A stretch of 21,554 nt of DNA from a virus, in the IMG/VR virus record IMGVR_UViG_3300046542_000363, positions 1-21,554 of that record. One strand, written 5' to 3'. Positions within the stretch are counted from its first letter, which is position 1; the number at the start of each line of letters is the position of its first letter. Below the pieces are notes generated by a model that worked only from the letters and a program-made list of their open reading frames with translations, ran no database searches and had not been told where the DNA came from. The position numbers and the translations under genes were made by a program. Positions 629-19,347 of the stretch are shown here, one piece after another.

Positions 629-679
629 GCCCGCCTCCCGGCCGCCAAGGGGCGAAGGCGACACGAGGAGAGGGCGGCG
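629..679 (+). promoter_or_regulatory. Start-associated hairpin, copy 1
   Basis: This is one of five related hairpins placed directly before start codons. The inner stem CGCC-AAGG-GGCG (643-654) carries the shared CCAAGGGGCG core. The outer arms CGCCCGCCTCC (629-638 region) and GGAGAGGGCGGCG (667-679) pair with small bulges and end at the base before ATG 680. The right outer arm contains the Shine-Dalgarno sequence GAGGAGAGGG, so the folded RNA should hide the ribosome binding site. The function is inferred; the pairing is visible. Confidence 0.5.
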
Positions 680-1339
680 ATGTCCGGTACGACACCACGG
701 CTGGGGCTGAAGACGTGGGATCAGTCCGATCCCTTCCTCCGCCAAGATTTCAATGACAACAACGGCAAGATCGACGCCTACCCGGGCACCTATGTCTGCA
801 CGTCCGGCTCCCGGCCCGCCTGGGGCGGTGCTCAGACCGGTCTGCGCATCTACGAGACCGACACCCGGCGCGAGTTGGTGTGGACGGGCACCGCGTGGCG
901 GGCGCTCCTCGACGCAGCGCCGGTGTGGACCGGGTACGTGCAGCCCAACGCCGCGATGGGCAAGGACACGCATGTCTACTACAAGATGGCCACCTTCACG
1001 GTGAACCGGCCTGGTGCGCTCCTGGTGCACCTGGAGGTCGAGTTCCAGTGCCAGTCCATTTACACGGCGAACGTCGCAGCACGTCCGCAGGTCGACGGCA
1101 GTGACTCCCAGATCGGCAGCACCTCGTCGTACATGCGCGTGCAGCAGACGAACACCTCCGGTGCGGGCTGGTCGCGGCACTACATGATGGGGGCTGACGG
1201 CCTGCGCACGGTCGGGGTGGGCAGTCACAACTTCGGCATCCACTTCTACACGACCCCGACGTCGACCACGTCGACGGTGTCGGTGAGCCTGGCGTCGGTG
1301 CGTGGCTGGGCGATGCTCGTCAACTCGCAGGACACGTGA
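680..1339 (+). CDS. Fibre-like structural protein, 219 aa
   Basis: The N-terminus (TPRLGLKTWDQSDPFLRQDF, then a stretch running through YVCTSGSRPAWG to YETDTRRELVW-TGTAWRALL) is a module I associate with fibre or appendage proteins of Streptomyces phages, where it seems to be an attachment domain. The rest (about residues 90-219) is rich in Ser, Thr, Gly and aromatic residues and predicts as a beta sandwich, as expected for a trimeric fibre head. There is no signal peptide or transmembrane segment. The ATG lies right behind hairpin copy 1 with SD GGAGAGGG. Its TGA overlaps the next ATG by one base, so translation is probably coupled to the connector-like gene downstream. Fibre genes normally follow the baseplate genes, so this place beside neck genes is odd and a head-borne fibre is possible. 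The assignment is family-level. Confidence 0.55.
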   Translation: MSGTTPRLGLKTWDQSDPFLRQDFNDNNGKIDAYPGTYVCTSGSRPAWGGAQTGLRIYETDTRRELVWTGTAWRALLDAAPVWTGYVQPNAAMGKDTHVYYKMATFTVNRPGALLVHLEVEFQCQSIYTANVAARPQVDGSDSQIGSTSSYMRVQQTNTSGAGWSRHYMMGADGLRTVGVGSHNFGIHFYTTPTSTTSTVSVSLASVRGWAMLVNSQDT

Positions 1340-2214
1340 TGGCGGCCGACGAGTACACCGACCGGGCCTATATCTCCCGCTACGCGGCGGGGGACTTCGG
1401 CCTGCAGGTCATGCGTGACGGCGCGCCCGGCGACGCCGACGCTGCCGTCACGGTGGCGCTCCTGCATGACGACGATGCCCAGACGTCGGTGTTCTCCCGC
1501 GCGGCCGACCACCCGGGCGTCGGCCAGTACACGGTGCGCCTGTCGTCCAAGGAGACGGCCGCTCCAGGCCCGTATGTCCTGGTGTGGACGTACACCGTGG
1601 CCGGGGTTGAGGAGGAGTGGCGGTTCTGGCTGGAGGTCGGCAAGGCGGCCCCGGAGTACGACCGGCTGGCCGACTCGATGAAGGGGGTGATCGAGCAGAC
1701 ATGGAACCGGTTCAGCGACCTGTTCGACTACGCCACCGAAGGCCCGCACCTGCAGACGTACGTCCAGTCCAACTTCGGCCGGAACCGCCTCGCGCAGCTG
1801 CTGCGGATCGCCGTTGGCCGCCTCAATACGGCCGCCCAGCCGTACCAGACGTACACGATCGACGGTGACGGCGGCGCCAGCTTCCCGGTGGACAAGTGGG
1901 GCTCTCTGCTGGAGTCCTCGCTGTATGTGGAGTGCCTGCGGCACCTGATGCGCTCGTACGTCGAGCAGCCCGAGGTGCAGTCCGGCTCCGGTGTCTCGCG
2001 GCTGGACCGGCGGGACTACATGGACCGCTGGGGCGTGATCCTGCAGGGCGAGCAGGAGGTCCTGAAGTCCCAGCTTGACACCTTCAAGATCGCCCACATG
2101 GGGCTCGGCACCGCCCGGGTCCTCGTGAGTGGCGGGGCCTATGGACGTTGGGGGCCCACCCGGCTGCCGCTGTCCGAGGCCGCGCGTCCGAGGTGGCTCA
2201 CCCGTTTCTACTGA
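1339..2214 (+). CDS. Putative neck / head-tail connector protein, 291 aa
   Basis: ATG 1339 overlaps the preceding TGA (TGATG); a GTG one codon earlier is possible but less likely. Residues about 1-105 form an Ig-like beta domain (ending YTVAGVEEEWRFWLEV). Residues about 110-291 are mostly helical with SNFGRNRLAQLLRIAVGRLN, a run rich in aromatic residues and LRHLMRSY, and a C-terminal loop RVLVSGGAYGRWGP. Such two-part proteins sit between capsid and tail genes in many actinobacterial phages and are annotated as structural or adaptor proteins. I infer a neck role from position and architecture; no catalytic motif is seen. The small gene downstream has its own strong ribosome binding site 19 bases after this stop. 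Confidence 0.45.
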   Translation: MAADEYTDRAYISRYAAGDFGLQVMRDGAPGDADAAVTVALLHDDDAQTSVFSRAADHPGVGQYTVRLSSKETAAPGPYVLVWTYTVAGVEEEWRFWLEVGKAAPEYDRLADSMKGVIEQTWNRFSDLFDYATEGPHLQTYVQSNFGRNRLAQLLRIAVGRLNTAAQPYQTYTIDGDGGASFPVDKWGSLLESSLYVECLRHLMRSYVEQPEVQSGSGVSRLDRRDYMDRWGVILQGEQEVLKSQLDTFKIAHMGLGTARVLVSGGAYGRWGPTRLPLSEAARPRWLTRFY

Positions 2215-2233
2215 TCGGTAACAAGGAGGGGCC

Positions 2234-2410
2234 ATGTCCGGTGGCGCCCAAGAAGGTCCTGCACCGTCTGTCGAGTTTGACCTGGACAACGTCGAGGTCA
2301 ACCAGGTCGTGTGCACGCACCGAGTCTGCGGCCACGGTCATGTCGTGGTCTCTCTCTACGAAGCCGAGAAGTTCCGGATCCTGCACATCTGCCCTGGCCG
2401 TTCCACCTGA
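2234..2410 (+). CDS. Small cysteine-containing protein, 58 aa
   Basis: The gene is short but well supported: a strong SD AAGGAGGGG (2222-2230) lies just before ATG 2234, and the frame ends at TGA 2408-2410 with good third-position G/C. The protein begins MSGGAQEGPAPSVEFDLDNV and has VCTHRVCGHGHVVV in the middle and HICPGRST at the end. Three Cys and three His could form a small zinc site or disulfides. It sits in a run of co-directional genes between the connector-like protein and the zinc-ribbon protein. I do not recognise a family. Confidence 0.6.
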   Translation: MSGGAQEGPAPSVEFDLDNVEVNQVVCTHRVCGHGHVVVSLYEAEKFRILHICPGRST

Positions 2411-2422
2411 TCGGAGAACCCC

Positions 2423-2596
2423 GTGTACAGCGTCACCCTCAAGGCCGGTCTGGTCGACGTCGTGCTGCCCAACGGCAACCGTTACCAGGGCGGCGACGTC
2501 GTCATCCTCTCGGCCGCCCAGTACGGGCAGATCCCGGCGGCCACGCGGACGGCCGTGTTCTCGGCCCAGAGCGTCGTCCCCGTCCCGGCGAGCTGA
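2423..2596 (+). CDS. Small hypothetical protein, 57 aa
   Basis: GTG 2423 is preceded by SD CGGAG (2412-2416) 12 bases after the previous stop. The TGA (2594-2596) overlaps the ATG of the next gene by one base, a pattern shared by most genes here and a good sign that this is real. The protein (MYSVTLKAGLVDVVLPNGNR, then YQGGDVVILSAAQYGQIP) reads as a small beta barrel. Proteins of this size and look occur among the capsid and connector genes of actinobacterial phages, but no function can be given. Confidence 0.6.
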   Translation: MYSVTLKAGLVDVVLPNGNRYQGGDVVILSAAQYGQIPAATRTAVFSAQSVVPVPAS

Positions 2597-3261
2597 TGAA
2601 GACGACTCGGGGGACGTACGTCCGCACCCAGCAGAACTGGGCCGTCGAGCAGGAGCGCCAGCGGCACGACCAGGCGCTGTGGATGATGGGTGAGAACACC
2701 CTGTTCTGCCTGCTGTGGACGGCGCGCGACCACGATGCCGGGCTCGTCGGCCTGTGCACGGTGTGCGCGTCCGACCGCATCTCCAAGGCGTACGGGCAGG
2801 CGACGCGGAACAAGTGCCCCTCCTGCTTCGGTACGCGCTTTGAGGGCGGCTACCGCGCGCTCATCGTGCGCCCGGCCATCTTCACGGACGCCGACGACGG
2901 CCAGAGCTTCACCGCCCGGGGCGTCGTCTCGCCGCAGGAGGTCCACATGGAGACCACCAGCGACTTCCGCGTCCACGGCGGCGACTACGCCATGCGCGCC
3001 ACCGGCGAGCGCCTGCAGCTGCGGACCCCGCAGCGCACCACGCTGCGCACCGGCTTCGGGACCCCGCACCAGAGGGACGACGGGACGGCGTACAACCTGA
3101 CCCGGGCGGCCGTCGAGGACGAGGACTCCGTGGCCTACACGATCCCGCCGAACCCCAGCGACCTCATCGCCATCCTGTCCCGGTTTGGGTCAACTCCTCC
3201 CAGTTTCGCCGACATAGAAGTAATTCGGGCTCCGCTGATTCCGCTGTACGAGCGAGACTGA
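2596..3261 (+). CDS. Zinc-ribbon virion-region protein, 221 aa
   Basis: ATG 2596 overlaps the upstream TGA. Two CXXC pairs, CTVC (residues 54-57) and CPSC (74-77), separated by 16 residues make a classic four-cysteine zinc ribbon. The segment before it is rich in Gln, Arg and aromatic residues (RTQQNWAVEQERQRHDQALW). The C-terminal half is a beta-rich region ending in IEVIRAPLIPLYERD. Position in the neck gene run suggests a head-completion or tail-joining protein stabilised by zinc; a DNA-contacting role cannot be excluded. No enzyme motif is present. A longer in-frame upstream reading would cross the two small genes and is not needed. Confidence 0.55.
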   Translation: MKTTRGTYVRTQQNWAVEQERQRHDQALWMMGENTLFCLLWTARDHDAGLVGLCTVCASDRISKAYGQATRNKCPSCFGTRFEGGYRALIVRPAIFTDADDGQSFTARGVVSPQEVHMETTSDFRVHGGDYAMRATGERLQLRTPQRTTLRTGFGTPHQRDDGTAYNLTRAAVEDEDSVAYTIPPNPSDLIAILSRFGSTPPSFADIEVIRAPLIPLYERD

Positions 3262-3471
3262 GCCACGTACTGGGAGAGGTGTAACAAGCGCCTCGGGTGC
3301 GTCGTCCAGTAGTGCATGGAACCAACGCCTGAGCAAGAAGAAGACGGCCGTGGGGACTTCCGTCCCCTCACCGACGAAGAACTGGAAAAGCGGCTGGTCT
3401 ACGTGCTGAACCTCATGCCGGACCAGCTGCCGGAAGACGAAGCCACAACCACCACACCAAGGGGTACCGCC
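3262..3471 (+). other. Leader or possible N-terminal extension before thyX
   Basis: The stretch holds no independent stop-bounded gene on the plus strand. From ATG 3316 an open frame runs straight into thyX without a stop and would add 52 acidic residues (PLTDEELEKRLVYVLNLMPD reads as a helix; TTTTPRGTA as a linker). No convincing SD precedes ATG 3316 (sequence GTCCAGTAGTGC). It may be a true extension made from 3316, or the leftover of a small gene that lost its stop. Confidence 0.4.
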
Positions 3472-4203
3472 ATGCCCACAGAGGACTACGACCTCACCTT
3501 CCGCGATGACGTCACCGTCGGATTGGTCAAGGCCGCTGCCGACGACGCCGACGTCATCTTCGCCGCTCGTGTCTCCACCGCCGGGGAGATGTCCCTGCGG
3601 GAGATCCGCAAGGACCCCGAGAAGTCCAAGGGCCTGATCAACTATCTGATGCGGGACCGGCACGGCTCGCCGTTCGAGCACAACTCGATGACGTTCTTCG
3701 TGCAGGCCCCGATCTTCGTCTTCCGCGAGTTCATGCGCCACAGGGTCGGGTTCAGCTACAACGAGGAGAGCGGAAGGTACCGCGAGCTGGAGCCGGTGTT
3801 CTACGTGCCGGGACCGGACCGCAAGCTCGTCCAGAAAGGGAAGCCCGGGAAATACGAGTTCGTCAAGGGCACCGTCGAGCAGGCCGACGAGACCTACGCG
3901 CAGATGACCCTCGCCTACCAGGAGGCGTACGACAGCTACCAGGGCATGCTGAAGGCGGGCGTCGCCCGTGAGGTCGCTCGCTCTGTCCTGCCGGTGGGCC
4001 TGTTCTCGTCGATGTACGTGACTACGAATGCCCGAGCCCTCATGCACTTCCTGTCTCTGCGTACCACCCATCCTGACGCCAAGGTCAAGAGCTACCCACA
4101 GCGCGAGATCGAGATGGTTGCCGAGCAGATGGAAGCAGAGTGGGCCCGGCTCATGCCGATCACCTACGAGGCGTTCAACAAGAACGGTCGGGTGGCACCG
4201 TGA
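3472..4203 (+). CDS. thyX: Flavin-dependent thymidylate synthase ThyX
   Basis: ThyX makes dTMP from dUMP with FAD, NADPH and methylene-tetrahydrofolate; phages carry it to raise the thymidylate supply for replication. The 243-residue length fits the family. The signature is clear: RHRVGFSYNEESGRY at residues 89-103, preceded by the FVQAPIFVFREFM strand, with the late motif ALMHFLSLRT and a C-terminal amphipathic helix. The spacing RHR-X8-S has one residue more than the textbook RHR-X7-S. ATG 3472 is chosen because SD AAGGGG lies seven bases upstream and MPTEDYDLTF is a normal N-terminus; ATG 3316 is the alternative. It sits, unusually, between neck and tail-completion genes, next to an HNH endonuclease. 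Confidence 0.93.
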   Translation: MPTEDYDLTFRDDVTVGLVKAAADDADVIFAARVSTAGEMSLREIRKDPEKSKGLINYLMRDRHGSPFEHNSMTFFVQAPIFVFREFMRHRVGFSYNEESGRYRELEPVFYVPGPDRKLVQKGKPGKYEFVKGTVEQADETYAQMTLAYQEAYDSYQGMLKAGVAREVARSVLPVGLFSSMYVTTNARALMHFLSLRTTHPDAKVKSYPQREIEMVAEQMEAEWARLMPITYEAFNKNGRVAP

Positions 4204-4685
4204 GTTCTGGTGCCAATAGACGCCTTACGGTCATCGGCAGGGTGAGCGACTGGGAGGTCCGCTTCTGGTCGAAGGTGGATCGGGACGGCCCTCGAATACT
4301 GGACGGACCTTGCTGGGTCTGGGGTGCGGCTACTGACTCAAACGGATACGGAGTCTTCCGCCTCAACGGGCATTCTCGCCGCACGCACCCGGTGTCCTGG
4401 GAGCTGCACAACGGGGAACCTGTGCCTCTCGGCCTGGTCGTTCGACACAGATGCGACCACCCGCCGTGCGTGAACCCGCACCATCTCTTGGCTGGCACTC
4501 ACGCCGACAACGTGGCCGACAAGGTGCTGAGAGGGAGGGCCGCCAACCAGAACACCAGGAAGACGCACTGCAAGGCCGGACATAAGTTGGCGGGCGAGAA
4601 CGTGTACGTCCGGCCCGACGGGAGGGGGCGACAGTGCGTAGTTTGCCAGCAGTCCCGGGGCGAACAATGGGCTGCGTCTGCCTGA
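4200..4685 (+). CDS. HNH endonuclease, homing-type, 161 aa
   Basis: This is a small zinc-binding HNH nuclease of the kind that spreads as free-standing homing endonucleases in phages. The core HRCDHPPCVNPHHLLAGTHA carries His83, Asn92 and His95 (counted from GTG 4200), followed by the usual NVADKVLRGR helix. The N-terminal FWSKVDRDGP...CWVWGAATDSNGYG segment and a C-terminal Cys cluster (HCKAGH...CVVCQ) are also typical. The GTG start overlaps the thyX stop (GTGA); GTG 4242 (VSDWEVRFWSKV) is an equally reasonable start, and neither has a strong SD. Third-position G/C is a little lower than in neighbours, which fits a mobile gene. It may have brought in or been attracted by thyX. Confidence 0.85.
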   Translation: MSSGANRRLTVIGRVSDWEVRFWSKVDRDGPRILDGPCWVWGAATDSNGYGVFRLNGHSRRTHPVSWELHNGEPVPLGLVVRHRCDHPPCVNPHHLLAGTHADNVADKVLRGRAANQNTRKTHCKAGHKLAGENVYVRPDGRGRQCVVCQQSRGEQWAASA

Positions 4686-4710
4686 CTCGCGTCGCACCGT
4701 AGCGCTGTCC

Positions 4711-4752
4711 GCGCCTCCTCCGTCGCCCTCAAGAGGTGAGCAGAGGAGGCGC
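4711..4752 (+). promoter_or_regulatory. Start-associated hairpin, copy 2
   Basis: A perfect 10-bp outer stem, GCGCCTCCTC (4711-4720) with GAGGAGGCGC (4743-4752), encloses the shared core TCGCCCTCAAGAGGTGA, which can form the small inner hairpin CCT-CAAG-AGG. The right arm contains the SD AGGAGG of the next gene and ends one base before GTG 4754, so folding would block the ribosome binding site. Confidence 0.55.
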
Positions 4753-4753
4753 T

Positions 4754-5143
4754 GTGACGTTGGTGTGGAGTGAGATCGTCGATCAGGCCAGACGGTCCGT
4801 CGAGGCTGCCCTGGGCAGCTCCCATGCAGGAGAGGATGGGGCCGTGACCGAGCACCCCACCCAGGAGTCCCTGGACAACATCAAGCACAACTTCTCCTTC
4901 GCCGACGCAGGCTCCTGGGACGAGGCGAAGGAGAACTTCGACATGGAGCATCCGGCCATGAAGGAGTTCGTCGAGGACGTACGTCAGAGAGGCGTCCAGA
5001 AGCCCGTCCGGATCGACTACGAGCAGTCCCCGCCCGAGGTGGTCGACGGTCACCAGCGCCTCGTCGCTGCTGACGCCGCCGGTCTCTCACACGTTCCGGT
5101 CAAGCACGGCACCTTCGCCGACGTGCACTACTACGGGGAATGA
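4754..5143 (+). CDS. ParB/Srx-like domain protein, 129 aa
   Basis: The C-terminal half (VQKPVRIDYEQSPPEVVDGH followed by QRLVAADAAGLSHVPV) matches the ParB N-terminal / sulfiredoxin-like fold. The GHQRLVAA motif stands where classical ParB has GERRxRA, the nucleotide-binding box. There is no helix-turn-helix and no C-terminal dimer domain, so this is a stand-alone ParB-like domain. Such proteins occur in phages with nucleotide-binding, nuclease or unknown roles. GTG 4754 follows AGAGGAGG with a tight spacing of four bases; TTG 4760, GTG 4763 or upstream GTG 4736 are alternatives. Its stop is one base before the next GTG. A link to the distant parA cassette is speculative. Confidence 0.7.
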   Translation: MTLVWSEIVDQARRSVEAALGSSHAGEDGAVTEHPTQESLDNIKHNFSFADAGSWDEAKENFDMEHPAMKEFVEDVRQRGVQKPVRIDYEQSPPEVVDGHQRLVAADAAGLSHVPVKHGTFADVHYYGE

Positions 5144-5144
5144 C

Positions 5145-5870
5145 GTGCTGGTCGAGGTCCCAGAGGTCCACCTCGTCACCCACCCCGACCGCATGATCAT
5201 GGTCGAGAAGGGGCTCCCCCCGAAGCGCGCCCAGGCTGCGGCCCGGGAGGCCGTACGGCAGGCCCGGCGCCGGATGCCGAAGCTCACCGGCGCAGCCGCG
5301 CGCGGCCTGCAGCCGCTGTACGGCAAGGGCTACTTCGGGATCTCCTGGTCCACCGACGTCGTCTGGTACCAAGACCACGGCACGAAGCCGTTCACCATGC
5401 GCTCGCTGGCCGGGAAGGTCATCCCGATGTGGATCGACGACCCGACCGGCCAGGAGCGCCGCGACAACCCGAAGGCGAAGACGCGCACCACGGAGACCGG
5501 CAAGATCCAAGTGTTGATCTTCCGACGTGCGGCAAAGATCGGGGAGCGGAAGAAGGTCTACAAGAAGGACCCCAAGACCGGCCTGAAGGTGCTCGTCTCC
5601 GATTCTCCGGCCCACTACCCGGGCGCCCCCGGCCGCATCGGCTGGCGCGAGGCCAAGCAGCCTTGGACCCGGCCCGGGAAGAGGCCGGGTGCGATCCACC
5701 CGGGGAACATCGGTGTTTGGTGGCGCCACCCGGGGTTGAAGCCCCGGAGTTTTTTGAACACGTCCATGACCTTGGCGGCGCAGAAGAACGGCCTGCTGGC
5801 TGAGCGGGTCTACGTCGCTGACCGGGGCTGGAGAAACAACGTCCGCCTGCACGGCGAGGAGTTCCGCTGA
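5145..5870 (+). CDS. HK97 gp10-like head-tail/tail completion protein, 241 aa
   Basis: The pattern fits gp10-type completion proteins: an N-terminal helix rich in Ala and Arg (KRAQAAAREAVRQARRRMPK), a beta region with VVWYQDHGTKPFTMRSLAGK where the family usually has a '..Y..G T...F' strand, and a C-terminal HPGLKPRSFLNTSM helix where the family has 'P..FL..A'. A basic insertion (about residues 105-150, KAKTRTTETGK, GERKKVYKKDPKTGLK) makes it longer than usual. The GTG start is one base after the preceding stop with GGGGA upstream. It overlaps the next ATG by one base. Its place just before the terminator-like gene and the sheath supports a neck role. Confidence 0.6.
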   Translation: MLVEVPEVHLVTHPDRMIMVEKGLPPKRAQAAAREAVRQARRRMPKLTGAAARGLQPLYGKGYFGISWSTDVVWYQDHGTKPFTMRSLAGKVIPMWIDDPTGQERRDNPKAKTRTTETGKIQVLIFRRAAKIGERKKVYKKDPKTGLKVLVSDSPAHYPGAPGRIGWREAKQPWTRPGKRPGAIHPGNIGVWWRHPGLKPRSFLNTSMTLAAQKNGLLAERVYVADRGWRNNVRLHGEEFR

Positions 5871-6502
5871 TGTACGTCACCAGGGTGAAGACCCTCGCGA
5901 TCGAGGCCCTGCACGCGGCCTTCGACGACCAGTACCCCGTGGCGGAGTTCCGGGGGCTGCACTGCTCGCTGGAGTACCCGGTCGACAAGTCCAGCTTCCC
6001 CGAGGTCTGGGTGCGTTATAGCGACACGGGCCCTCTGCGGCAGGCGGGCGTCTCGCACGTCGAGGACACCGACCCGGTCGACGGCGGCCGTGTCGCGCCG
6101 TACACGCGCTTCCGGTTCGAAGGCTCCTGGGAGTTCGTCGTCGTCGCTCTGTCGAGCGTGGAGCGGGACCGGGTCTACGACGAGCTGGTGGCGACGATCG
6201 CCTGGTCCGGGTTCGACTCGCTGCGCGGCCGGTTCCGCTCTTACCTGGCGGACAACGACCTGATCGATCTGACGGTCCGGACGGACGAGATCGAGTCGAC
6301 CGGGGAGTCGGCCGAGCCGGGCACGCCGTGGGGTACTGACGAGGTGGTCTACGAGCGGACCCTGGCCATCGACCTGATCGGTGACTTCACGCCGGACCCG
6401 GAGACCGGCGTCATCGTCCCGCTCTCGAAGATCGTGGTCACGCCGACCGCAGACCTCACCCTCGACGACCTGAGCGACAGCGGCTTCGACTCCTGGCACT
6501 GA
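5870..6502 (+). CDS. Probable tail terminator / completion protein, 210 aa
   Basis: ATG 5870 overlaps the previous TGA. The first half reads as an alpha-beta domain (YVTRVKTLAIEALHAAFDDQ, later FEGSWEFVVVALSSVERDRV) followed by WSGFDSLRGRFRSYLADNDL. The end is a longer acidic tail (LTLDDLSDSGFDSWH). Size, fold impression and location directly before the sheath gene are those of tail terminator proteins (gpU-like), which cap the tail tube and join it to the neck. No sequence signature is decisive, so the role rests mainly on gene order. It ends the neck run; a folded intergenic region with a possible terminator follows. Confidence 0.5.
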   Translation: MYVTRVKTLAIEALHAAFDDQYPVAEFRGLHCSLEYPVDKSSFPEVWVRYSDTGPLRQAGVSHVEDTDPVDGGRVAPYTRFRFEGSWEFVVVALSSVERDRVYDELVATIAWSGFDSLRGRFRSYLADNDLIDLTVRTDEIESTGESAEPGTPWGTDEVVYERTLAIDLIGDFTPDPETGVIVPLSKIVVTPTADLTLDDLSDSGFDSWH

Positions 6503-6509
6503 AGCGGGA

Positions 6510-6566
6510 GGTGGGCGATCGGCATCGCACCGTTGGGATGTGGAACGTCCCATGGGGTCGCCCGCC
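6510..6566 (+). terminator. Nested inverted repeat, possible weak terminator
   Basis: GGTGGGCGA (6510-6518) can pair with TCGCCCGCC (6558-6566) with one G-U pair, and inside it GGGATG (6535-6540) pairs with CGTCCC (6546-6551) around a five-base loop. There is no T tract. It separates the neck genes from the sheath gene and could attenuate read-through. Confidence 0.35.
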
Positions 6567-6604
6567 CCGCGCTGAAGCTACCACGCCTGTTGCTGTCCAC
6601 GGCC

Positions 6605-6636
6605 CGGTTGTCGCCCCAAGGGGTGACAGCTGACCG
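6605..6636 (+). promoter_or_regulatory. Start-associated hairpin, copy 3
   Basis: TGTCGCCC (6609-6616), loop CAAG, GGGTGACA (6621-6628) forms eight pairs with one G-U. CGGT (6605-6608) and ACCG (6633-6636) extend it across a four-base bulge. It carries the shared core TCGCCCCAAGGGGTGA and lies 18 bases before the sheath ATG. Here the hairpin does not reach the start codon. Confidence 0.5.
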
Positions 6637-6654
6637 ACGCGACTGGTGGGTGGC

Positions 6655-8181: not shown

Positions 8182-8185
8182 GCCC

Positions 8186-8220
8186 GCGCGGCAGGCGCTT
8201 GTGACGGGCCCCTGCCGCGC
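8186..8220 (+). terminator. Terminator hairpin 1 after the sheath gene
   Basis: A perfect 10-bp stem, GCGCGGCAGG (8186-8195) with CCTGCCGCGC (8211-8220), closes a 15-base loop and is followed by TTTAT. It lies four bases after the sheath stop. Confidence 0.65.
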
Positions 8221-8226
8221 TTTATG

Positions 8227-8260: not shown

Positions 8261-8321
8261 TGCTGTCCGTGGCCGCCCATCCCGCACCAGTGGGTGAGAC
8301 CTACGGATGGGGTGGTGAGCA

Positions 8322-11972: not shown

Positions 11973-11975
11973 GCC

Positions 11976-13047: not shown

Positions 13048-13051
13048 GACG

Positions 13052-13261
13052 TCACTTCATTCGGTGCTTGAGGATCTTCAGCGCGAACCAGGGCCAGAGG
13101 AGAAGGAACCCCGCCACGATGAATGGGAGCTGGTCTTCAAGATCCCAGGCCATCCATGAATCGTCGTCCTTCACCGCGCGAATCGCAAGGACCGACGAGG
13201 CAGCCCAGCCGACCAGCCACACCGCGCCAAGGATCACCCATGGCGTCATCTCTGCATCCAT
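13052..13261 (-). CDS. Two-helix small membrane protein on the opposite strand, 69 aa
   Basis: This is the only minus-strand gene inside the tail gene run. It has two clear hydrophobic segments, about residues 6-27 (TPWVILGAVWLVGWAASSVL) and 44-63 (QLPFIVAGFLLLWPWFALKI), joined by an acidic loop (KDDDSWMAWDLED), and a basic end (KHRMK). The ATG at 13261 is preceded on its strand by AGGATGAGGGT; an internal ATG four codons on is possible. G/C at third positions is lower than in neighbours, so it may be a late acquisition (a 'moron'). Candidate roles are superinfection exclusion, a holin-like function or host alteration in the prophage state; none is proven by sequence. Confidence 0.65.
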   Translation of the reverse strand: MDAEMTPWVILGAVWLVGWAASSVLAIRAVKDDDSWMAWDLEDQLPFIVAGFLLLWPWFALKILKHRMK

Positions 13262-13289
13262 ACCCTCATCCTAGGCTTCAGGAGGAGCT

Positions 13290-13952
13290 GTGGCCGACAC
13301 CCGCAAGGGCCTGAACTGCCTGCTGTTCTACCCCAAGGACAGCAAGACCAACGCCAGCTTCCGGGTCCGTGCCGACGTCCTCGGGCACGGCATGACGATG
13401 GTCGCCGACTCCTCCAGTTCCCGTAACGCCCGCGCGTACTACCCGCACCGGCCGACCCCGTCACGCTTCTACCTGCGGGTGCTGCTCAAGGGGTACGGCG
13501 AGCGCAAGGCGTTCGCCGACTGGATGCAGGGCTACGCCAACTTCGTGATGAACCCGGGCCTGGCCGCCGGTGACTCCTTCCCCGACATGGGGGTCATGCT
13601 CCCGAACCGGAACTTCTACCGCGAGGGCGTGCCCCTGTCCGGCTTCGAGTGGGGCGACACCATCGGCACTGTCGTCTGGACGCCGGTCATCACCTTCGAG
13701 TGCACCCGCGAGCCCCAGGACGTCACAGCCCTCTCCACGAGCAGCTTCAAGAACGCCCAGGACCCCGAGATGAAGTACTTCTGGCCCATGGGCACGCAGC
13801 TCGGCGGCAACGCGGTCCCGTCCGGCAACTACCAGACTGTCGACCCCGGCAAGGACGGCGGCTCCGACCCGGGCCAGCTGGAAGACCTCCCGGTCAACCC
13901 GATGCCCAATGAGGGCACCCCGCCGAACGAGCGGTACGACTACGGGAACTGA
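13290..13952 (+). CDS. Probable baseplate/tail protein, 220 aa
   Basis: GTG 13290 follows an excellent SD AGGAGGAG (13279-13286). The protein begins MADTRKGLNCLLFYPKDSKT. It has strands and one helix (RVLLKGYGERKAFADWMQGY) followed by FVMNPGLAAGD and an acidic, proline-rich tail (about residues 185-220, ending PPNERYDYGN). The helix-loop resembles ones I associate with tube-like beta proteins at the tail tip, but I cannot name a family. Its position between the tape-measure-adjacent genes and the hub-lysin fits a baseplate hub component. A strong terminator follows, so it ends a transcription unit. Confidence 0.5.
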   Translation: MADTRKGLNCLLFYPKDSKTNASFRVRADVLGHGMTMVADSSSSRNARAYYPHRPTPSRFYLRVLLKGYGERKAFADWMQGYANFVMNPGLAAGDSFPDMGVMLPNRNFYREGVPLSGFEWGDTIGTVVWTPVITFECTREPQDVTALSTSSFKNAQDPEMKYFWPMGTQLGGNAVPSGNYQTVDPGKDGGSDPGQLEDLPVNPMPNEGTPPNERYDYGN

Positions 13953-13959
13953 AATGCGC

Positions 13960-13998
13960 GACGCCAGGCCCCCGGTCTGCCCCGGGACTCCTGGCGTC
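13960..13998 (+). terminator. Terminator hairpin after the 220-aa baseplate gene
   Basis: GACGCCAGG (13960-13968) pairs perfectly with CCTGGCGTC (13990-13998). Inside, CCCGG (13971-13975) pairs with CCGGG (13982-13986). CACTTGC follows without a long T tract. It starts eight bases after the stop. Confidence 0.7.
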
Positions 13999-14038
13999 AC
14001 TTGCAGCCGCCCACGGCGACCGCCACTGCTACAAGGAT

Positions 14039-14077
14039 AGCGGCCCGCCCCAGGAACTTCGGCACGGGCGGGCCGCT
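14039..14077. terminator. Second inverted repeat, possible bidirectional terminator
   Basis: AGCGGCCCGCCC (14039-14050) and GGGCGGGCCGCT (14066-14077) form a perfect 12-bp stem with a 15-base loop. It lies in the 224-base gap before the hub-lysin gene. The rest of that gap shows no gene I can support. Confidence 0.5.
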
Positions 14078-14149
14078 CAGCCGGATGGAAAGGCCGACAC
14101 CAAAAGGCGCACGGCCAGCGTAGCGGGGGTCGTGTCGCCGTGTCCGTGG

Positions 14150-14167
14150 TTCGCCCCAAGGGGCGGA
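14150..14167 (+). promoter_or_regulatory. Start-associated hairpin, copy 4
   Basis: TTCGCCC (14150-14156), loop CAAG, GGGCGGA (14161-14167) gives seven pairs including one G-U. It contains the shared CGCCCCAAGGGGCG core. The right arm overlaps the beginning of the SD GGAGG used by GTG 14177. Outer arms are weak here. Confidence 0.5.
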
Positions 14168-14176
14168 GGTGGTCTC

Positions 14177-16663
14177 GTGCCGAACTTCGTCCTGGCACCC
14201 GGCGTCAAGGTCTACGTCTCGACCGAGAGGCACGGGATCATCGACGTCTCGGACGACCTGGTCGAGGGCTCGATGACGCGCCGCTCGGACGGTGTCAGTT
14301 CCTTTAACTTCAGCCTGCAGAACGCCCGCCGGAAGTACGACGGCGTGCTGACCCCGAACGACCGCGTCTCGGTGCAGATGAAGCGGCTGAAGTGGGTGCA
14401 GGTATTCACCGGCTACCTGAACAAGGTGCCGCTCGTCACGGCGTGGCCGCGCGTCGTCCACCTGACCGCGTCCTGCTCGCTCAAGCGGCTGCAGTACTGG
14501 TACTGGGACTCCCACACCGAAGCGTCGCAGTCCATGGTGCGCGACGCCCTGACGGACGCGAACAAGGACACCGGTGTCTCCGACGGCGGCATGACGAACG
14601 TCGCGCTCACCGTGCTGAAGAAGGTGGTGGGCTGGCCGGAGTCCAAGGCCCACATCGCCCGCATCCCGAACAACTGGTTCTCGGTCATCGAGGTCCTGGC
14701 CAAGCAGATCGACGCCCAGCTCACCGGCGCCGACGAGATCGCACGAGCCCTGCTGGATCAGCTCGGCACCGCGTCCGTCGGCGGCACGGGCGGCGCGGAC
14801 GCCAGCTCGCTGAACGGGACGTACGGCGGCTTCAACAACCCGGACCAGAAGGCCAACGCCGCGATCATCTACAACGTCGGCAAGGAGAAGGGCGGCTCCA
14901 GCCGTGACTGCATCATCGCCATCATGACGGCGATGCAGGAGTCCGGCCTGCGCAACCTCAAGGGCGGCGACCGGGACAGCGCGGGCCTCTTCCAGCAGCG
15001 CCCCTCCCAGGGCTGGGGCACCCACGAGCAGGTGACCGACCCCCGGTACGCGGCGGGGAAGTTCTACGACGCCCTCTTCAAGGTCACGAACCGCGACCAC
15101 ATGGAGCTGTGGAAGGTCTGCGACACGGTCCAGCGCTCCGGCGCGCCGCACGAGTACGCCAAGCACGAGAAGCCCGCCACGGCCATGGTCAAGGACCTGG
15201 AGAAGGGCGGGGGCAAGCTGGACTCCAAGACGAAGCCGCAGGGCACCATCTCCGGCGTCGACCTGGCCCAGCTCTCCGTGAACTTCTGCCAGAAGTACCC
15301 GAACATTCCGTACACCCAGCAGTACGGCGGCACCCAGATGGGCGTGCTGTCGCAGAACCCTCCGCCCGGCCTGGACTGCTCCAGCTTCGTGCAGGCCATG
15401 TACTTGAGGGCGCTCGGGTCTCTGTATGACCTGCCCCGTGTGGCGGCGGCGCAGTACGGCGCGTGCAAGAAGGTGACGGTGGCGAAGGCCCTGGCGACGC
15501 CTGGTGCGCTGGTCTTCAAGGGCTCCTCGCCGGGCGGCATCTACCACGTGGAGATGAGCCTGGGTGACGGCAAGAGCACGATCGGCGCGCACCGCGCGGG
15601 TGCCAAGCCGCATGACGTCGGCGTCAACCCGCCGTCGGCGGCGTCGTACTGGGACTTCGGCGGCTTCCTGCCGCGCGTCGCGTACACCACGGGCGCGGGC
15701 ACGGTCATCTTCGATGGGTCGGACGGCACCAGCGGGGGCGTCAACGACATGAGCGGCGACCCCGGGGTCGAGCTGGTCACCGGCGCCGACGCGCCCGGGT
15801 ACAACCCCAAGGACCCGTTCGACAAGATGTTTGCCGACAACGCGTGGCTGCCGATCTCGACGGCGCAGAACGACCCGAACTACGCGCTGGCGCAGGCCCT
15901 GGCCGGGCCGCGAGCGCTGCTGAACGATCAGCCGTTGCTGCCGTACCTGAAGAACCTGTTCAACTCGTCGATGCGGTCGTTTTGCTCCGCGCCGAACGGC
16001 GACCTGATCGCCTGGTACCCGGACTACTACGGGATGTGGGGCACGGCCGCCAAGATGGTCATCCAGCCCATCGAGGTGCAGGACTTCGAGGTGTCCTGGT
16101 CGGATGACTACATGGTCACCCACCAGTTCGTGGTGACGTCACCGGTCAGCGGGAACCTCTTCGACCCGGCCACGGGGACCGTGCAGCAGTCCATCTCCGA
16201 CAGCTACCTGTCCCAGTCGGCTCTCTTCACCACCGGCATCGTGACCATCGACTTCCCGGGTGTGTGGAAGGCGCTGTTCGGGATGGACAAGACAGACAAG
16301 CAGGCGAAGGAGTACGCGGACTGGATCAAGCAGCGGTTCGGTGCCCGGCCGGACTACCAGCAGCTGCCAGCCCTCATCGGTCCGAAGGCCGCACTGTTCT
16401 CGGCGATCTTCCTCTTCATGCGGCAGTTCGCCTTCCAGTACCAGGCCAACATCCCGCTGACGTTCATGCCGGAACTGTGGCCGGGGATGCTGCTGCAGTT
16501 CCCCGCCTTCAACTTCCAGGGCTACGTCACCACGGTCCAGCACGACTTCAAGTTCGGCGAGGGCGGCTACTTCAAGACGTCAGTGCAGCTCGCGGCCCCG
16601 GCCCGGCTCACTGGCGACAAGGACAAGCGGCTGCTCGGTCTGCCGATGGCGGGAGGCAACTGA
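14177..16663 (+). CDS. Tail hub protein with built-in lysozyme-like and NlpC/P60 domains, 828 aa
   Basis: GTG 14177 is chosen because SD GGAGG lies seven bases before it and PNFVLAPGVKVYVS is a natural start. Residues 1-190 look like a phage hub domain (VEGSMTRRSDGVSSFNFSLQ, PNDRVSVQMKRL). Residues about 219-345 match the actinobacterial lysozyme/transglycosylase-like fold: AIMTAMQESGLRNLKGGDRD with likely catalytic Glu255, then SAGLFQQRPSQGWG and VTDPRYAAGKFYDAL. Residues about 358-500 match NlpC/P60 peptidase: GLDCSSFVQAM with Cys401, GGIYHVEMSLGDGK with His457, and another His at 472. Residues about 545-828 return to a hub/tail pattern (LIAWYPDYYGMWG, IQPIEVQDFEVSW, FPAFNFQGYVTTVQHDFKFG). 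It would cut glycan and peptide bonds of peptidoglycan as the tube enters. The next ATG overlaps its stop. Confidence 0.85.
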   Translation: MPNFVLAPGVKVYVSTERHGIIDVSDDLVEGSMTRRSDGVSSFNFSLQNARRKYDGVLTPNDRVSVQMKRLKWVQVFTGYLNKVPLVTAWPRVVHLTASCSLKRLQYWYWDSHTEASQSMVRDALTDANKDTGVSDGGMTNVALTVLKKVVGWPESKAHIARIPNNWFSVIEVLAKQIDAQLTGADEIARALLDQLGTASVGGTGGADASSLNGTYGGFNNPDQKANAAIIYNVGKEKGGSSRDCIIAIMTAMQESGLRNLKGGDRDSAGLFQQRPSQGWGTHEQVTDPRYAAGKFYDALFKVTNRDHMELWKVCDTVQRSGAPHEYAKHEKPATAMVKDLEKGGGKLDSKTKPQGTISGVDLAQLSVNFCQKYPNIPYTQQYGGTQMGVLSQNPPPGLDCSSFVQAMYLRALGSLYDLPRVAAAQYGACKKVTVAKALATPGALVFKGSSPGGIYHVEMSLGDGKSTIGAHRAGAKPHDVGVNPPSAASYWDFGGFLPRVAYTTGAGTVIFDGSDGTSGGVNDMSGDPGVELVTGADAPGYNPKDPFDKMFADNAWLPISTAQNDPNYALAQALAGPRALLNDQPLLPYLKNLFNSSMRSFCSAPNGDLIAWYPDYYGMWGTAAKMVIQPIEVQDFEVSWSDDYMVTHQFVVTSPVSGNLFDPATGTVQQSISDSYLSQSALFTTGIVTIDFPGVWKALFGMDKTDKQAKEYADWIKQRFGARPDYQQLPALIGPKAALFSAIFLFMRQFAFQYQANIPLTFMPELWPGMLLQFPAFNFQGYVTTVQHDFKFGEGGYFKTSVQLAAPARLTGDKDKRLLGLPMAGGN

Positions 16664-16899
16664 TGATGGGTCCAGGGAACGCCGCCACCCACGGGATCGG
16701 CTGGACGGTCAAGCAGGTCAAGGTCAGCTCGATCCTCACGGACAAGAAGTTCGCCCTGTGTGTCGACACCGAGGGCCAGCAACTGGAGGTCACCACGGCC
16801 ATCCACCGCACCGGCATCACGCCGATGGTCGGCCAGACCTGGCTCGTCGACCGCACGTACGGCGTGTGGAGCTTCGCCGCCTGGGTCGACCTGACATGA
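16663..16899 (+). CDS. Small OB-fold-like baseplate protein, 78 aa
   Basis: ATG 16663 overlaps the hub stop (TGATG), with a second in-frame ATG at 16666. The sequence shows alternating strands (WTVKQVKVSSILTDKKFALC, QLEVTTAIHRT) and a closing GQTWLVDRTYGVWSFAAWVD, the rhythm of a small OB barrel such as the N-terminal domain of spike or hub-joining proteins. Being coupled to the hub-lysin gene suggests the products interact. No longer spike (gpV-like repeats) or PAAR tip is visible in the window. The fold reading is by eye and tentative. Confidence 0.55.
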   Translation: MMGPGNAATHGIGWTVKQVKVSSILTDKKFALCVDTEGQQLEVTTAIHRTGITPMVGQTWLVDRTYGVWSFAAWVDLT

Positions 16900-16929
16900 A
16901 AAAAGTGAGACCCAGTGGGTCTCACTTTT
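16900..16929. terminator. Bidirectional terminator, copy 1 of a tandem pair
   Basis: Perfect palindrome AAAAGTGAGACCC - AGT - GGGTCTCACTTTT: a run of A on one side and T on the other gives an intrinsic terminator in both directions. It begins one base after the stop of the 78-aa gene and faces the convergent minus-strand partition-like genes. Confidence 0.92.
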
Positions 16930-16940
16930 CCCGGTACCAG

Positions 16941-16965
16941 AGTGAGACCCAGTGGGTCTCACTTT
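16941..16965. terminator. Bidirectional terminator, copy 2 of a tandem pair
   Basis: AGTGAGACCC - AGT - GGGTCTCACT repeats the upstream palindrome exactly over about 25 bases (AGTGAGACCCAGTGGGTCTC plus ACTTT). It ends three bases before the stop codon of the minus-strand gene. The pair insulates the two opposing operons. Confidence 0.9.
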
Positions 16966-16968
16966 CGA

Positions 16969-17949
16969 CTATCCGACGATCTCAGCAGCAGCCTCGTACT
17001 TGCGCCGCATGTCTTCGACGTACCTCTTGGCCTCGTCGGGGTCTTCCTTGTTCGCCTCGCGGAGGGTCTCCAGGTCGAGGATGCGCCCGGTCCGTCGCGC
17101 CTTCGCCAGCTGGTCCACGGCCTTGGACGGGGCCGACGTGCTGGGCTCGGGCTCGATGACGTCAGTGGCCTCGCCGAGAAGGAGGAGCCTGCGGGCCGCT
17201 ACGGCGCCGCCGGAGTTGACCCGGCCCATCCTCTTCATCTCGGTGAACTGCTCACGGAGGTTCTTCTGGCGCTCCGGAGAGACGTCCGGCTCTCCATCGG
17301 GAGTGACAGGGATCTCGCCCTTCTCGTCCACGATGGTGGAGAACAGCTCACGGATGGTGCGCTCGTTGAGCGGCTCGTCTACCAGATCTCCGATGATCCG
17401 GTAGACCGGGACGGCTCGGCGGAGCCGGTAGACGTCCTGCTTGCCGAGGTCGAGCGGGGCGGCGAACTTCTCGATGGACTTGATGCCCGCGTCCTTCAGG
17501 CGGTCGCCCTGGGTGGCCCACCACAGGTACTCGCCCGCCGACGAGACGTAGTCCTTCTGCATCCTCCCGAGGCCGTTGGCGAGGCCCCGGTTGGCCCGTG
17601 CGATCCCGCGCCGGACGATGCCCACCTTCTCCAGGGGGTCTGCATCCTCGGGCGGCACGATGAACTGGAAGGGGTTGCCTTCCTCGGCTGCCGTGACGAC
17701 CTGATCGGCGGTCGGGGTAACGACGGTGCTGGAAGGCATGGCCGGGGTTTCGGCCTGGTGGGGCACGGCGGCAGTCGCAGCCTCCTCCAGCGCCTGCAGC
17801 TCGACCTCGGGTTCGTCCTGCTCGCCGCGACGGGCAGGGGCCACCTCGCTGGTCGTCGCGCCTGCGGTGGCCTGCTGGATGCGCCTCTCTCGCGCGGTCA
17901 GCTTCTTGGCGACCGTCTTCTTGGCGGCGGGGGCTTCAACGCGGGGCAT
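16969..17949 (-). CDS. ParA partner, probable DNA-binding ParB-like protein, 326 aa
   Basis: Its ATG overlaps the stop of parA by one base (TGATG on the minus strand), the layout of a parAB operon. Residues 1-95 are disordered and Lys/Ala/Glu-rich (AAKKTVAKKLTARERRIQQA). Residues 95-205 are helical and include FAAPLDLGKQDVYRLRRAVP followed by VYRIIGDLVDEPLNERTIRE, which reads like the helix-turn-helix and following helices of ParB proteins. The C-terminal third is charged and helical (ADEAKRY..., EDMRRKYEAAAEIVG). The ParB nucleotide-binding GERRxR box is not seen, so it is not a canonical ParB. I infer a centromere-binding role from operon position; a different regulator is possible. Confidence 0.6.
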   Translation of the reverse strand: MPRVEAPAAKKTVAKKLTARERRIQQATAGATTSEVAPARRGEQDEPEVELQALEEAATAAVPHQAETPAMPSSTVVTPTADQVVTAAEEGNPFQFIVPPEDADPLEKVGIVRRGIARANRGLANGLGRMQKDYVSSAGEYLWWATQGDRLKDAGIKSIEKFAAPLDLGKQDVYRLRRAVPVYRIIGDLVDEPLNERTIRELFSTIVDEKGEIPVTPDGEPDVSPERQKNLREQFTEMKRMGRVNSGGAVAARRLLLLGEATDVIEPEPSTSAPSKAVDQLAKARRTGRILDLETLREANKEDPDEAKRYVEDMRRKYEAAAEIVG

Positions 17950-18743
17950 CAGCTGATGACCTCCTTCATGGCGTGGCGGAACAAGAGGCCCATCTCTTCG
18001 AGATGGTTGCGCTTCGGGGTCTCGTCCCAGGAGCGCGGGTACTCGGGGGCATCGCTGATCTCGAACTCCACGTCCACGAAGGCGATGTCGATCTTCTCGC
18101 GGATGTCGTCGTCAATTTTCGTCGCCATGATGGCCTCGACGACCGGCCGGGCGTCGGCCGCTAGCGTGTTCCGGCCGGTGCACTTCACCATGCACACGAA
18201 GACCTTCAGGCGGGCGTCGTTGGCCTTGCCTCCCCGCGCGGCAGTCTTGGCCGTCGGCGCGATGCGGTTCCACTCGAAGCCGGACGGAGCGAACGGGAGG
18301 AGCACCATGCGCGCCGACTGGCACAGCTCCCAGTACTCCTCCTTACCAGCGCCGCCGGAGTCGACGAGGATGACGTCGTATGCCTCGCGGAAGCTGTCGA
18401 TGACGTCGTCGAGGTCGGGGGCGTCCTCGGCCTTGTTCTTGCAGTCGTAGGTGACCAGGTCGAACGGGACCTTCTCCGGCCCCCCAGGGCGGGCCTCCCG
18501 GACCTTGTACCAGTTGTCGATGCTCTGGCTGTTGTTGTCCGTGTCGATGACCAGAACCTTGAGGCCGAGGATCAAGGACAGGTAGAGGGCTACGAAGATG
18601 GTCATCGTGGTCTTGCCGGTGCCGCCCTTGAGCATGCCGACACCGATGACGAGACAGCCGTTGTCACTGATCCACGCTCGGATCTCTTCCTGCGAGGCGA
18701 GCAGCCGCTTCAGCTGCTGCCTGGGGAGCGTAGAAGTCTTCAC
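17949..18743 (-). CDS. parA: ParA-family partition ATPase, 264 aa
   Basis: ParA ATPases drive segregation of plasmids, chromosomes and phage-plasmids. The deviant Walker A KGGTGKTT spans residues 39-46 with the family's signature Lys39. VLVIDTDNNSQS (Asp67/Asp69) is the A' motif and VILVDSGGAGK (Asp128) the Walker B. About 28 residues precede the ATPase core (QQLKRLLASQEEIRAWISDN), too short for the HTH of type Ia ParA, so it is closer to type Ib or chromosomal forms, though MinD-like relatives share the motifs. GTG at 18743-18741 has SD GAAGGGA on its strand. It is transcribed divergently from the gp25-like gene and ends in an overlap with the partner gene. Confidence 0.88.
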   Translation of the reverse strand: MKTSTLPRQQLKRLLASQEEIRAWISDNGCLVIGVGMLKGGTGKTTMTIFVALYLSLILGLKVLVIDTDNNSQSIDNWYKVREARPGGPEKVPFDLVTYDCKNKAEDAPDLDDVIDSFREAYDVILVDSGGAGKEEYWELCQSARMVLLPFAPSGFEWNRIAPTAKTAARGGKANDARLKVFVCMVKCTGRNTLAADARPVVEAIMATKIDDDIREKIDIAFVDVEFEISDAPEYPRSWDETPKRNHLEEMGLLFRHAMKEVIS

Positions 18744-18859
18744 TCCGGTCCCTTCTTAGGCGGGTTGTCGCCCACATCTTGCCGTACCGGCGATGCCCGG
18801 GTGCGCAGGAGCCGTGTTTCGGCCCTGTCTTGGAGCGGAAAGGGTGAGGAGGTGGGCTC
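18744..18859. promoter_or_regulatory. Divergent intergenic region between parA and the gp25-like gene
   Basis: The 116 bases must hold the start signals for the minus-strand parA operon, and perhaps a promoter for the baseplate genes. I could not find a convincing -35/-10 pair on either strand and no clean repeated site that would mark a centromere. The SD of parA (minus) and AGGAGGTGG (plus) flank it. Confidence 0.4.
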
Positions 18860-19288
18860 ATGAAGACGCTGGCGCTCGTCGGCGGGGACCTGGCACTGGG
18901 TGACGGCGGCTACCGGACGCTCACCGGCGCCGCCCGCATCCGACAGGACCTGGCACTCGCACTCGCCGAGCCGTACGGCCACGACAGCTATCACCCGCAG
19001 TTCGGGTCGGTGCTGGCCGCGCACATCGGTGAGCCGCTGACGCCGGAGCTGGAGCTGCTCGTGCGCGCCGAGGTGGTGCGGGTGGTGCAGCAGTACGTGG
19101 ACGGCCAGCAGGCCCAGATCGCGGCCGACGCCCTGTCCGGCTCCCGGAGCCGGTTCAGCTTCCAGGACGTGGTGCAGTCGGTGCAGTCCATCAGCACGGA
19201 CATCCAGTACGACACGATCAAGGTGACGATCGCGCTGAAGACGCAGTCCGGCGGAACGGTCCGGGTGCTGCGGACGGTGAGCACCTGA
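18860..19288 (+). CDS. Baseplate wedge protein, gp25/gpW-like, 142 aa
   Basis: The gp25-like wedge protein joins baseplate wedges to the hub and starts sheath polymerisation. Size and pattern fit: GGDLALGDGGYRTLTGAARI at the start, RQDLALALAEPYGHDSYHPQFGS where the family has 'i...l.T..GeR...P.fG', then GEPLTPELELLVRAEVVRVV and a final strand pair (IQYDTIKVTIALKT, GGTVRVLRTVST). The SD AGGAGGTGG is seven bases before ATG 18860. The gene precedes the baseplate J-like gene, the standard order in P2- and T4-like tails. It is separated from the other baseplate genes by the reversed parA operon. Confidence 0.82.
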   Translation: MKTLALVGGDLALGDGGYRTLTGAARIRQDLALALAEPYGHDSYHPQFGSVLAAHIGEPLTPELELLVRAEVVRVVQQYVDGQQAQIAADALSGSRSRFSFQDVVQSVQSISTDIQYDTIKVTIALKTQSGGTVRVLRTVST

Positions 19289-19298
19289 CTTTTGCTGT

Positions 19299-19347
19299 GC
19301 GGCGCCTTCCTCTCGCCCTCAAGGGGTGACGAGAAGGAGGGCGCCGC
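19299..19347 (+). promoter_or_regulatory. Start-associated hairpin, copy 5
   Basis: GCGGCGCC (19299-19306) pairs with GGCGCCGC (19340-19347), continued by TTCCT/AGGAG with a one-base bulge and by CTCG/CGAG, with the shared core TCGCCCTCAAGGGGTGA at the tip. The right arm contains SD GAAGGAGG and ends at the base before ATG 19348. This is the longest and most complete member of the family, with about 17 pairs. Confidence 0.6.

Follow-up and report, generated by a model that had tools for sequence, protein, structure and literature searches.

The virus record IMGVR_UViG_3300046542_000363 of IMG/VR, a stretch of 21,554 bases with contractile-tail genes that is called the window below, carries a repeated element upstream of seven of its genes that is best read, from its sequence, as a phage-specific bipartite late promoter. 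The conserved unit consists of (T)nCTGTCC, about 19 nucleotides (nt) and CAAGGGG(T/C)GA, at fixed spacing. It is probable (we would put it at about 0.7) that this promoter also acts as a translational lock: read-through RNA from further upstream would hide the Shine-Dalgarno sequence (SD) of the following gene in a hairpin, and RNA made from the promoter itself would leave it free. An earlier note on the window had described five start-associated hairpins with a common core and had considered a translational operator, an RNase site or a recombination site at module boundaries; all five copies exist on the plus strand, before the starts at 680, 4754, 6655, 14177 and 19348, and two more were overlooked.

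The window is taken as a piece of a Streptomyces phage-plasmid because of its relatives. Among the close ones are IMG/VR records of 154-157 kb: one is identical, letter for letter, to pRLB1-9.1 of Streptomyces sp. RLB1-9, and another corresponds to a contig of Streptomyces sp. MH60. pRLB1-9.1 is circular (154,158 bp) with annotated capsid, baseplate and ParA genes and thus combines an extrachromosomal replicon with virion genes, as a phage-plasmid does; the window is a fragment and is assigned via homology.

Taken by itself, the window shows little excess of the core over chance: CAAGGGGTGA occurs four times at up to one mismatch (1.4 expected), and four occurrences were reached by seven of 100 shuffles. 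The case therefore rests on the relatives. There, the listed sites resembling CAAGGGGTGA revealed a second block, CTGTCC, about 25 nt upstream, and the conserved core hairpin, which the earlier note had taken as the unit, was abandoned when this block appeared: the core is present, but it is one part of a longer element. Among 181 core seeds from nine records or parts of records, the window included, TGTCC (up to one mismatch) precedes the core by 24 nt in 67 cases, by 25 nt in 19 and by 23 nt in 18, and any other offset accounts for 0-13, so that the two blocks keep a near-fixed spacing with a peak at 23-25 nt. The logo of 115 non-redundant copies, which were chosen for that spacing, is C90 T96 G97 T90 for the upstream block and C94 A100 A100 G98 G93 G95 G92 [T64/C36] G100 A83 for the core, with an unconserved, C-rich spacer in between. 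The seeds used to train our scoring matrix were selected for CTGTCC near the core, which is a possible source of circularity; the spacing histogram is independent of the matrix, and a word count in the more distant phage G017 presupposes CTGT only: of the words that lie 18-23 nt beyond CTGT, AAGGGG shows the strongest enrichment, with 17 cases.

A matrix trained without the copies of pRLB1-9.1, but with homologues of these copies, finds 23 forward and two reverse sites in pRLB1-9.1 at 14 bits or more; the same matrix finds none in the reversed sequence and two, none and none in three Markov sequences. A listed start follows 20-65 nt after all 23 forward sites but one, and the remaining one precedes the sheath gene, which spans the origin of the record. 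In pRLB1-9.1, the element is thus, as had been claimed, repeated and associated with starts, rather than scattered within genes or over both strands. Forward sites are found at 0-20, 39-59 and 118-154 kb, and the stretch of 59-118 kb holds only the two reverse matches. Across the nine records or parts, 134 forward and two reverse sites reach at least 15 bits; a start codon with an open frame follows within 75 nt after 133 of the 134, a lenient test that both reverse matches pass too and that we do not rely on. In two Streptomyces genomes (8.1 and 8.2 Mb), all 15 strict matches are on the phage contig and none on the host chromosomes. G017 has 19 sites, all on one strand, and the contig G016 has 17 forward sites and one reverse site; G004 (152,435 bp) has a single site of 31.6 bits at its position 60842 (L024 1927-1943), the array being otherwise absent. 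A host sigma-70 promoter resembling TTGACA/TATAAT occurs nowhere in positions 1-20000 of the window.

The sites behave like promoters, as they are oriented, stand just before starts and are confined to the phage contig; they are oriented with, and lie just upstream of, genes of the virion type, and it is from this gene content that we infer late timing. A promoter is also suggested by the fixed-spacing CTGTCC, which lies at the base of the hairpin or beyond it, and by the lack of conservation between the blocks. The same features speak against the identities considered first. A translational operator or RNase site, in which a protein would bind a conserved core hairpin in the RNA, fits with a core that precedes starts and joins a small hairpin in many copies, but is very unlikely given a second block some 25 nt upstream, at fixed distance across unconserved sequence, and Rfam returned no family above threshold in the window. 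Recombination or homing sites at module boundaries would agree with copies lying between genes, one of them after an HNH gene (4200-4685); they are hardly credible, as the site recurs before the same genes in different records (the largest families have at least 10 distinct copies) and the distance to the start stays within 20-65 nt at 22 of 23 sites.

The spacer between the promoter blocks, which differs in sequence from gene to gene, is also the left arm of the predicted hairpin. The native pairing of spacer and leader beats permutations in all seven related records tested (0, 0, 0, 0, 0, 4 and 63 of 5000 permutations were as good); as these records are related to each other, the seven tests are not independent and tests at the level of gene families are the better guide. 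When the left window was slid along 106 sites, complementarity was confined to the region between the blocks (best z -10.6), and windows entirely upstream of CTGT had a |z| of 2.2 or less; copies below 20 bits and copies with identical arms had been dropped from this sample and from the one used for SD openness. In pRLB1-9.1, this pairing is absent from the 165 annotated starts that lack the motif (z +1.1 to +2.2). The 20 starts with the motif reach z -6.0 when the leader window is 20 nt long, -3.2 at 26 nt and -0.2 at 32 nt.

The families were assembled from a motif-pattern search of IMG/VR: among the matches listed, many contigs had a single match and only loci with at least two sites were used; copies without a start, copies near the end of a locus and single-site loci were dropped, and 128 copies in 33 families were kept. 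Native arms pair better than the arms of other genes in 24 of the 33 families (p 1.1e-4). For tests of whether the arm tracks the SD, leaders below 10 nt were dropped (122 of 128 copies kept), as were SDs below 4 of 6 and arms under a score of 7, leaving 24 of 33 families. The position of the right arm follows that of the SD with a Spearman coefficient of 0.88, versus 0.53 for swapped arms (4 of 200 swaps reach 0.88), and where the SD lies 18-29 nt beyond the core, the arm centre does so too in most families. The right arm covers the SD in 21 of 24 families, versus 11.5 of 16.5 after swapping, and arms with a score of at least 10 are found in 15 families versus 1.9; the native family count, the mean score, the 21 covered SDs and the 15 strong arms were each reached by none of 200 swaps. 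Arms miss the SD in the other three families, the sheath family among them. The earlier claim that several of the hairpins hide the ribosome binding site is hence supported in that such hairpins are commoner than chance. By folding prediction (n = 98), the SD is unpaired with 0.19 in read-through RNA and with 0.25 when the arm of another gene is inserted (p 1.9e-4); it rises to 0.48 in RNA that starts after the core, a comparison that is partly trivial because this RNA is shorter.

A palindrome acting at the DNA level would be an alternative source of these arms: cruciform extrusion could aid melting of the G-rich -10-type element, as in the promoters of the N4 virion RNA polymerase, or a dimeric regulator could bind. 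Many hairpins do close around the core, and G-U pairs are not favoured over A-C mismatches in the arms (see below). We nevertheless regard this explanation as improbable, because the right arm follows the SD and not the core, where a cruciform at the -10 position should remain centred, and because the arms vary between genes, unlike a protein-binding site.

The lock that we propose would work as follows. The -35-type element CTGT(C/T)(C) and the -10-type element CAAGGGG(T/C)GA have their first bases 24-26 nt apart, and by the usual geometry of sigma-type promoters transcription would most likely start at the final bases of the core or immediately beyond them; it should not start much further downstream, because some SDs begin directly after the core. 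The spacer would serve as the left arm of the hairpin and the right arm would usually be the SD region of the gene. RNA reading through from upstream would carry both arms and have its SD hidden, and RNA started at the promoter would lack the left arm and have its SD free. At 10 of 21 sites in pRLB1-9.1, CTGT begins 3-16 nt past the preceding stop codon; therefore, any read-through transcript would include the element.

The promoter may be recognised by a phage-encoded factor. The best candidate is the 130 amino acid protein WP_143626633.1 with a domain resembling sigma region 4: it matches PF08281 barely above the cut-off (26.6 versus 25.7 bits), and the best structural matches to its predicted model (predicted local distance difference test, pLDDT, 69; predicted template modelling score, pTM, 0.60) are sigma factors, many of them region 4, although these matches are weak (E 0.03 and above). 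The protein is present in G001, G002, G003 (= G015), G005, G006, G016 and G017, with a weak homologue in Mycobacterium phage Alice (E 5e-4); it was not found in G004 and the phages Myrna, E3 and Stormageddon, and not in the fragments G007 and G008, although both of these carry the promoter. The protein is thus linked to the promoter by co-occurrence, which is suggestive and not more, because the record groups are related. Other candidates are a helix-turn-helix protein of 79 amino acids, with a match (E 2.4e-10) to a PHROG that bears the name 'sigma factor', and a WhiB-like protein of 190 amino acids.

Several results weigh against a promoter with a lock. Nine of the 33 families pair no better with their own arms than with those of other genes, swapped arms often cover SDs too (in 70% of their families), and the pairing excess at the 20 motif starts of pRLB1-9.1 is abolished with the leader window of 32 nt. 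Three features that could have pointed to RNA were not seen: G-T and A-C mismatches in the arms stand at 10:10, with no preference for G-U, single-sided changes lead to G-U in 155 cases and to A-C in 184, and the sense fold is lower than the antisense fold in only 16 of 33 families (p 0.96). The earlier observation of differing arms with kept pairing is clear across genes and much weaker within homologous genes, where native arms are better in 15 of 22 families (p 0.049), so that the covariation expected in relatives is weakly supported. Double changes in homologous genes (Watson-Crick pairing kept in 49 of 78 cells) were given no weight, as the ordered pairs repeat sequences and the slid controls are not comparable. 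Arm pairing in G017 is near chance, with z -0.6 to -2.0 in the spacer windows and -2.2 in one upstream control window, and the G016 contig has one site of 24 bits on the wrong strand. On the side of the factor, no sigma region 2 (PF04542) was found in eight records, the region-4 protein is likewise without region 2, and no full sigma factor was found among 30 of the 185 annotated proteins of pRLB1-9.1 that were scanned with PHROGs. The G-rich -10-type element is not known to fit any host sigma consensus.

Much of this would suit a promoter only, with palindromes that are a by-product of a pyrimidine-rich spacer facing a purine-rich SD: G017 keeps the promoter blocks with arm pairing near chance, spacers are C-rich and swapped arms cover many SDs, and an RNA-specific signature was not found in G-U pairs, in single-sided changes or in the comparison of sense and antisense. 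We consider this rather unlikely all the same. The permutations preserve composition, yet native pairing is far better in the clade of the window; strong arms exceed those obtained by swapping (15 versus 1.9 families); and two families, MADLY and MTDS, hold members in which both arms have been replaced and the pairing kept. The promoter is firmer than the lock, because G017 keeps 19 promoter sites but pairs its arms near chance; arm pairing in the G016 contig falls in between, with a best z of -2.9 and 16 of 5000 permutations doing equally well.

All seven putative promoters of the window are on the plus strand, and the best score on the minus strand is 8.5 bits. Promoter 1 (619-679; 31.1 bits) has CTGTTC at 621-626, the spacer or left arm at 627-645, the core CAAGGGGCGA at 646-655 and a leader with the SD up to 679. 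It precedes the gene at 680 (219 amino acids), and this gene carries the site in seven of the nine records or parts scanned, window included. By eye, a strong G+C hairpin is visible right before this promoter (560-620), which is absent from the terminator scan list; in pRLB1-9.1, the 45 nt preceding the promoter fold to less than -26 kcal/mol in six of 21 cases, where random sequence gives -14 +/- 4.3, and terminators may precede some promoters.

Promoter 2 (4703-4753; 28.1 bits) has CTGTCC at 4705-4710 and the core CAAGAGGTGA at 4730-4739, and its arms GCGCCTCCTC (4711-4720) and GAGGAGGCGC (4743-4752) cover the SD; the product of the gene at 4754 (129 amino acids) is ParB_N-like, under the Pfam cut-off. 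The HNH gene stands directly after thyX (ThyX, at 3316) and is followed by promoter 2 and the ParB_N-like gene; pRLB1-9.1 lists no HNH or ParB_N-like genes between thyX and the next gene.

Promoter 3 (6591-6654; 32.2 bits), with CTGTCC at 6593-6598 and the core CAAGGGGTGA at 6617-6626, precedes the tail sheath gene at 6655, identified by similarity to annotated sheaths; its hairpin adjoins the core and leaves the SD uncovered, as in the sheath family. Promoter 4 (8261-8321; 17.9 bits), one of the two overlooked, has CTGTCC at 8263-8268 and the core CAGTGGGTGA at 8288-8297 and has a counterpart at position 408 of pRLB1-9.1; the gene at 8322 (167 amino acids) is by gene order probably the tail tube. 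Further downstream, the frames 8839-9354 and 9210-9785 overlap, with GGGAAAA at 9327, and look like a frameshifted pair of tail assembly chaperones.

Promoter 5 (14130-14176; 23.2 bits) has GTGTCG at 14132-14137 and a core, CAAGGGGCGG (14157-14166), that runs into the SD GGAGG; the homologue of the gene at 14177 in pRLB1-9.1 is annotated as NlpC/P60. Promoter 6 (18812-18859), the other one overlooked, is weak (11.0 bits), with GTGTTT at 18814 and the core GAAAGGGTGA at 18838-18847, and is backed by stronger copies in relatives, which have CAAGGGGTGA or CAAGAGGTGA before the same gene (18860, 142 amino acids; presumably baseplate gpW, from gene order). Promoter 7 (19293-19347; 31.3 bits) has CTGTGC at 19295-19300 and the core CAAGGGGTGA at 19320-19329 and precedes the gene at 19348, baseplate J by the annotation of its homologue; the hairpin arms, within 19299-19347, cover the SD GGAGG up to the start codon.

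The hairpins differ in stability relative to shuffled sequences: folded in isolation, the copies at 4711, 6605 and 19299 have z values of -4.8, -5.2 and -5.7, and with flanks -3.2, -1.3 and -5.7. The copy at 629 is no stabler than shuffled sequence (z -0.5 alone, +0.7 with flanks), and neither is the copy at 14150 (z -0.2 with flanks, the only form tested).

Two further features of the window stand within or next to the tail module. At 16905-16965, between a gene on the plus strand and par-like genes on the minus strand, the palindrome GTGAGACCCAGTGGGTCTCAC occurs twice in tandem, with TTT after each copy; exact copies, mostly paired, are found in 10 of 248 loci, several of them from the same records, and the palindromes are a candidate for a bidirectional terminator or a parS-like site. 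The par-like genes are a minus-strand pair (16969-18743) within the tail module: 17949-18743 occupies the position that the annotated ParA family gene has in pRLB1-9.1 and its neighbour encodes 326 amino acids, a pair consistent with the partitioning of a phage-plasmid.

Little is known of late promoters in actinobacteriophages; a mycobacteriophage review of 2022 states that the characterised ones are few and that such promoters could be of use in expressing genes (PMC9262239). We found no description of the present promoter in the literature searched, most subscription journals being outside the reach of that search. It would provide a defined candidate for contractile-tail Streptomyces phages of about 155 kb, with a relative in a cluster C mycobacteriophage, and the lock, if true, would explain how virion genes stay untranslated in a phage that lives as a plasmid. 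A more far-reaching version is possible, though we doubt it: a genome-wide 'transcript-origin lock' on most late genes of Streptomyces phage-plasmids, in which each spacer is antisense to its own ribosome site and only RNA of the phage late polymerase is translated, so that virion and lysis genes are silent in the lysogenic plasmid, and in which the promoter class is common to cluster C mycobacteriophages and is recognised by a phage-encoded sigma fragment consisting of region 4 only.

The relative in question is found in Alice (Bixzunavirus, cluster C), of which 143 of 153 kb were examined. CTGT-N20-C(G/T)AATAG(G/A)TGA precedes gp98 (51763), gp232 (133570) and the endolysin gene (140036), and at up to one mismatch all three matches of this pattern stand before late genes on the coding strand. 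Looser copies precede 38827 and 93768; at three mismatches there is one further plus-strand site inside a gene and two matches on the minus strand. Folding energies of the five leaders range from -21.9 to -30.5 kcal/mol, values without a shuffle control. Alice resembles the Streptomyces phages in the distance between GGTGA and CTGT, which is their commonest spacing, and in its distant homologue of the region-4 protein; it differs in having fewer sites and an A/T-richer -10 block. A looser pattern gave one site in Myrna (50 kb examined) and no coding-strand motif in Rhodococcus phage E3 and Gordonia phage Stormageddon (50 kb each), the latter with one minus-strand match; the same pattern gives four plus-strand matches (one without a start) and one minus-strand match in Alice. 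By eye, Alice (L213/L214) also has a block of about GTTATAGT, then a CACCAC/CACACA run before AGGAG, upstream of several small genes (examples at 90165, 122964 and 145997); these are perhaps early promoters.

The earlier note had been reminded of the start-associated sequences (SAS) of cluster K mycobacteriophages. The resemblance holds for position: SAS and the extended form with an inverted repeat (ESAS) are likewise repeated, oriented and placed directly before start codons. It does not hold for sequence, as the SAS consensus GGGATAGGAGCCC has no match in the window at up to two mismatches. ESAS inverted repeats share a consensus sequence (PMC3203893) and SAS are mostly outside the structural module (PMC12699233), whereas the arms described here vary from gene to gene and the elements precede virion genes.

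The closest known mechanism is that of phage T4. Long upstream transcripts of gene e and I-TevI fold such that the SD is hidden, and a T4 late promoter overlaps the left arm of the SD hairpin, so that late transcripts lack this arm (PMC3014915, PMC2988022). A promoter lying over the left arm of an SD hairpin is thus shown for T4 and predicted here. The T4 late promoter, TATAAATA, is used with gp55/gp33 and has no match in the window at up to one mismatch; in the phage-plasmid, a different, bipartite promoter would carry the mechanism. The mechanism would be a variant of the gene e kind, yet it has neither the sequence of T4 late promoters nor the consensus of SAS and would therefore be filed under neither. 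In T4, the genes so described are a handful, e (lysozyme), I-TevI, soc and 49 (PMC3014915, PMC2988022); in the actinobacterial phage-plasmids of Streptomyces, the element stands before about 20 genes per record, which suggests that the trick of the T4 lysozyme gene may be the rule for a whole late regulon.

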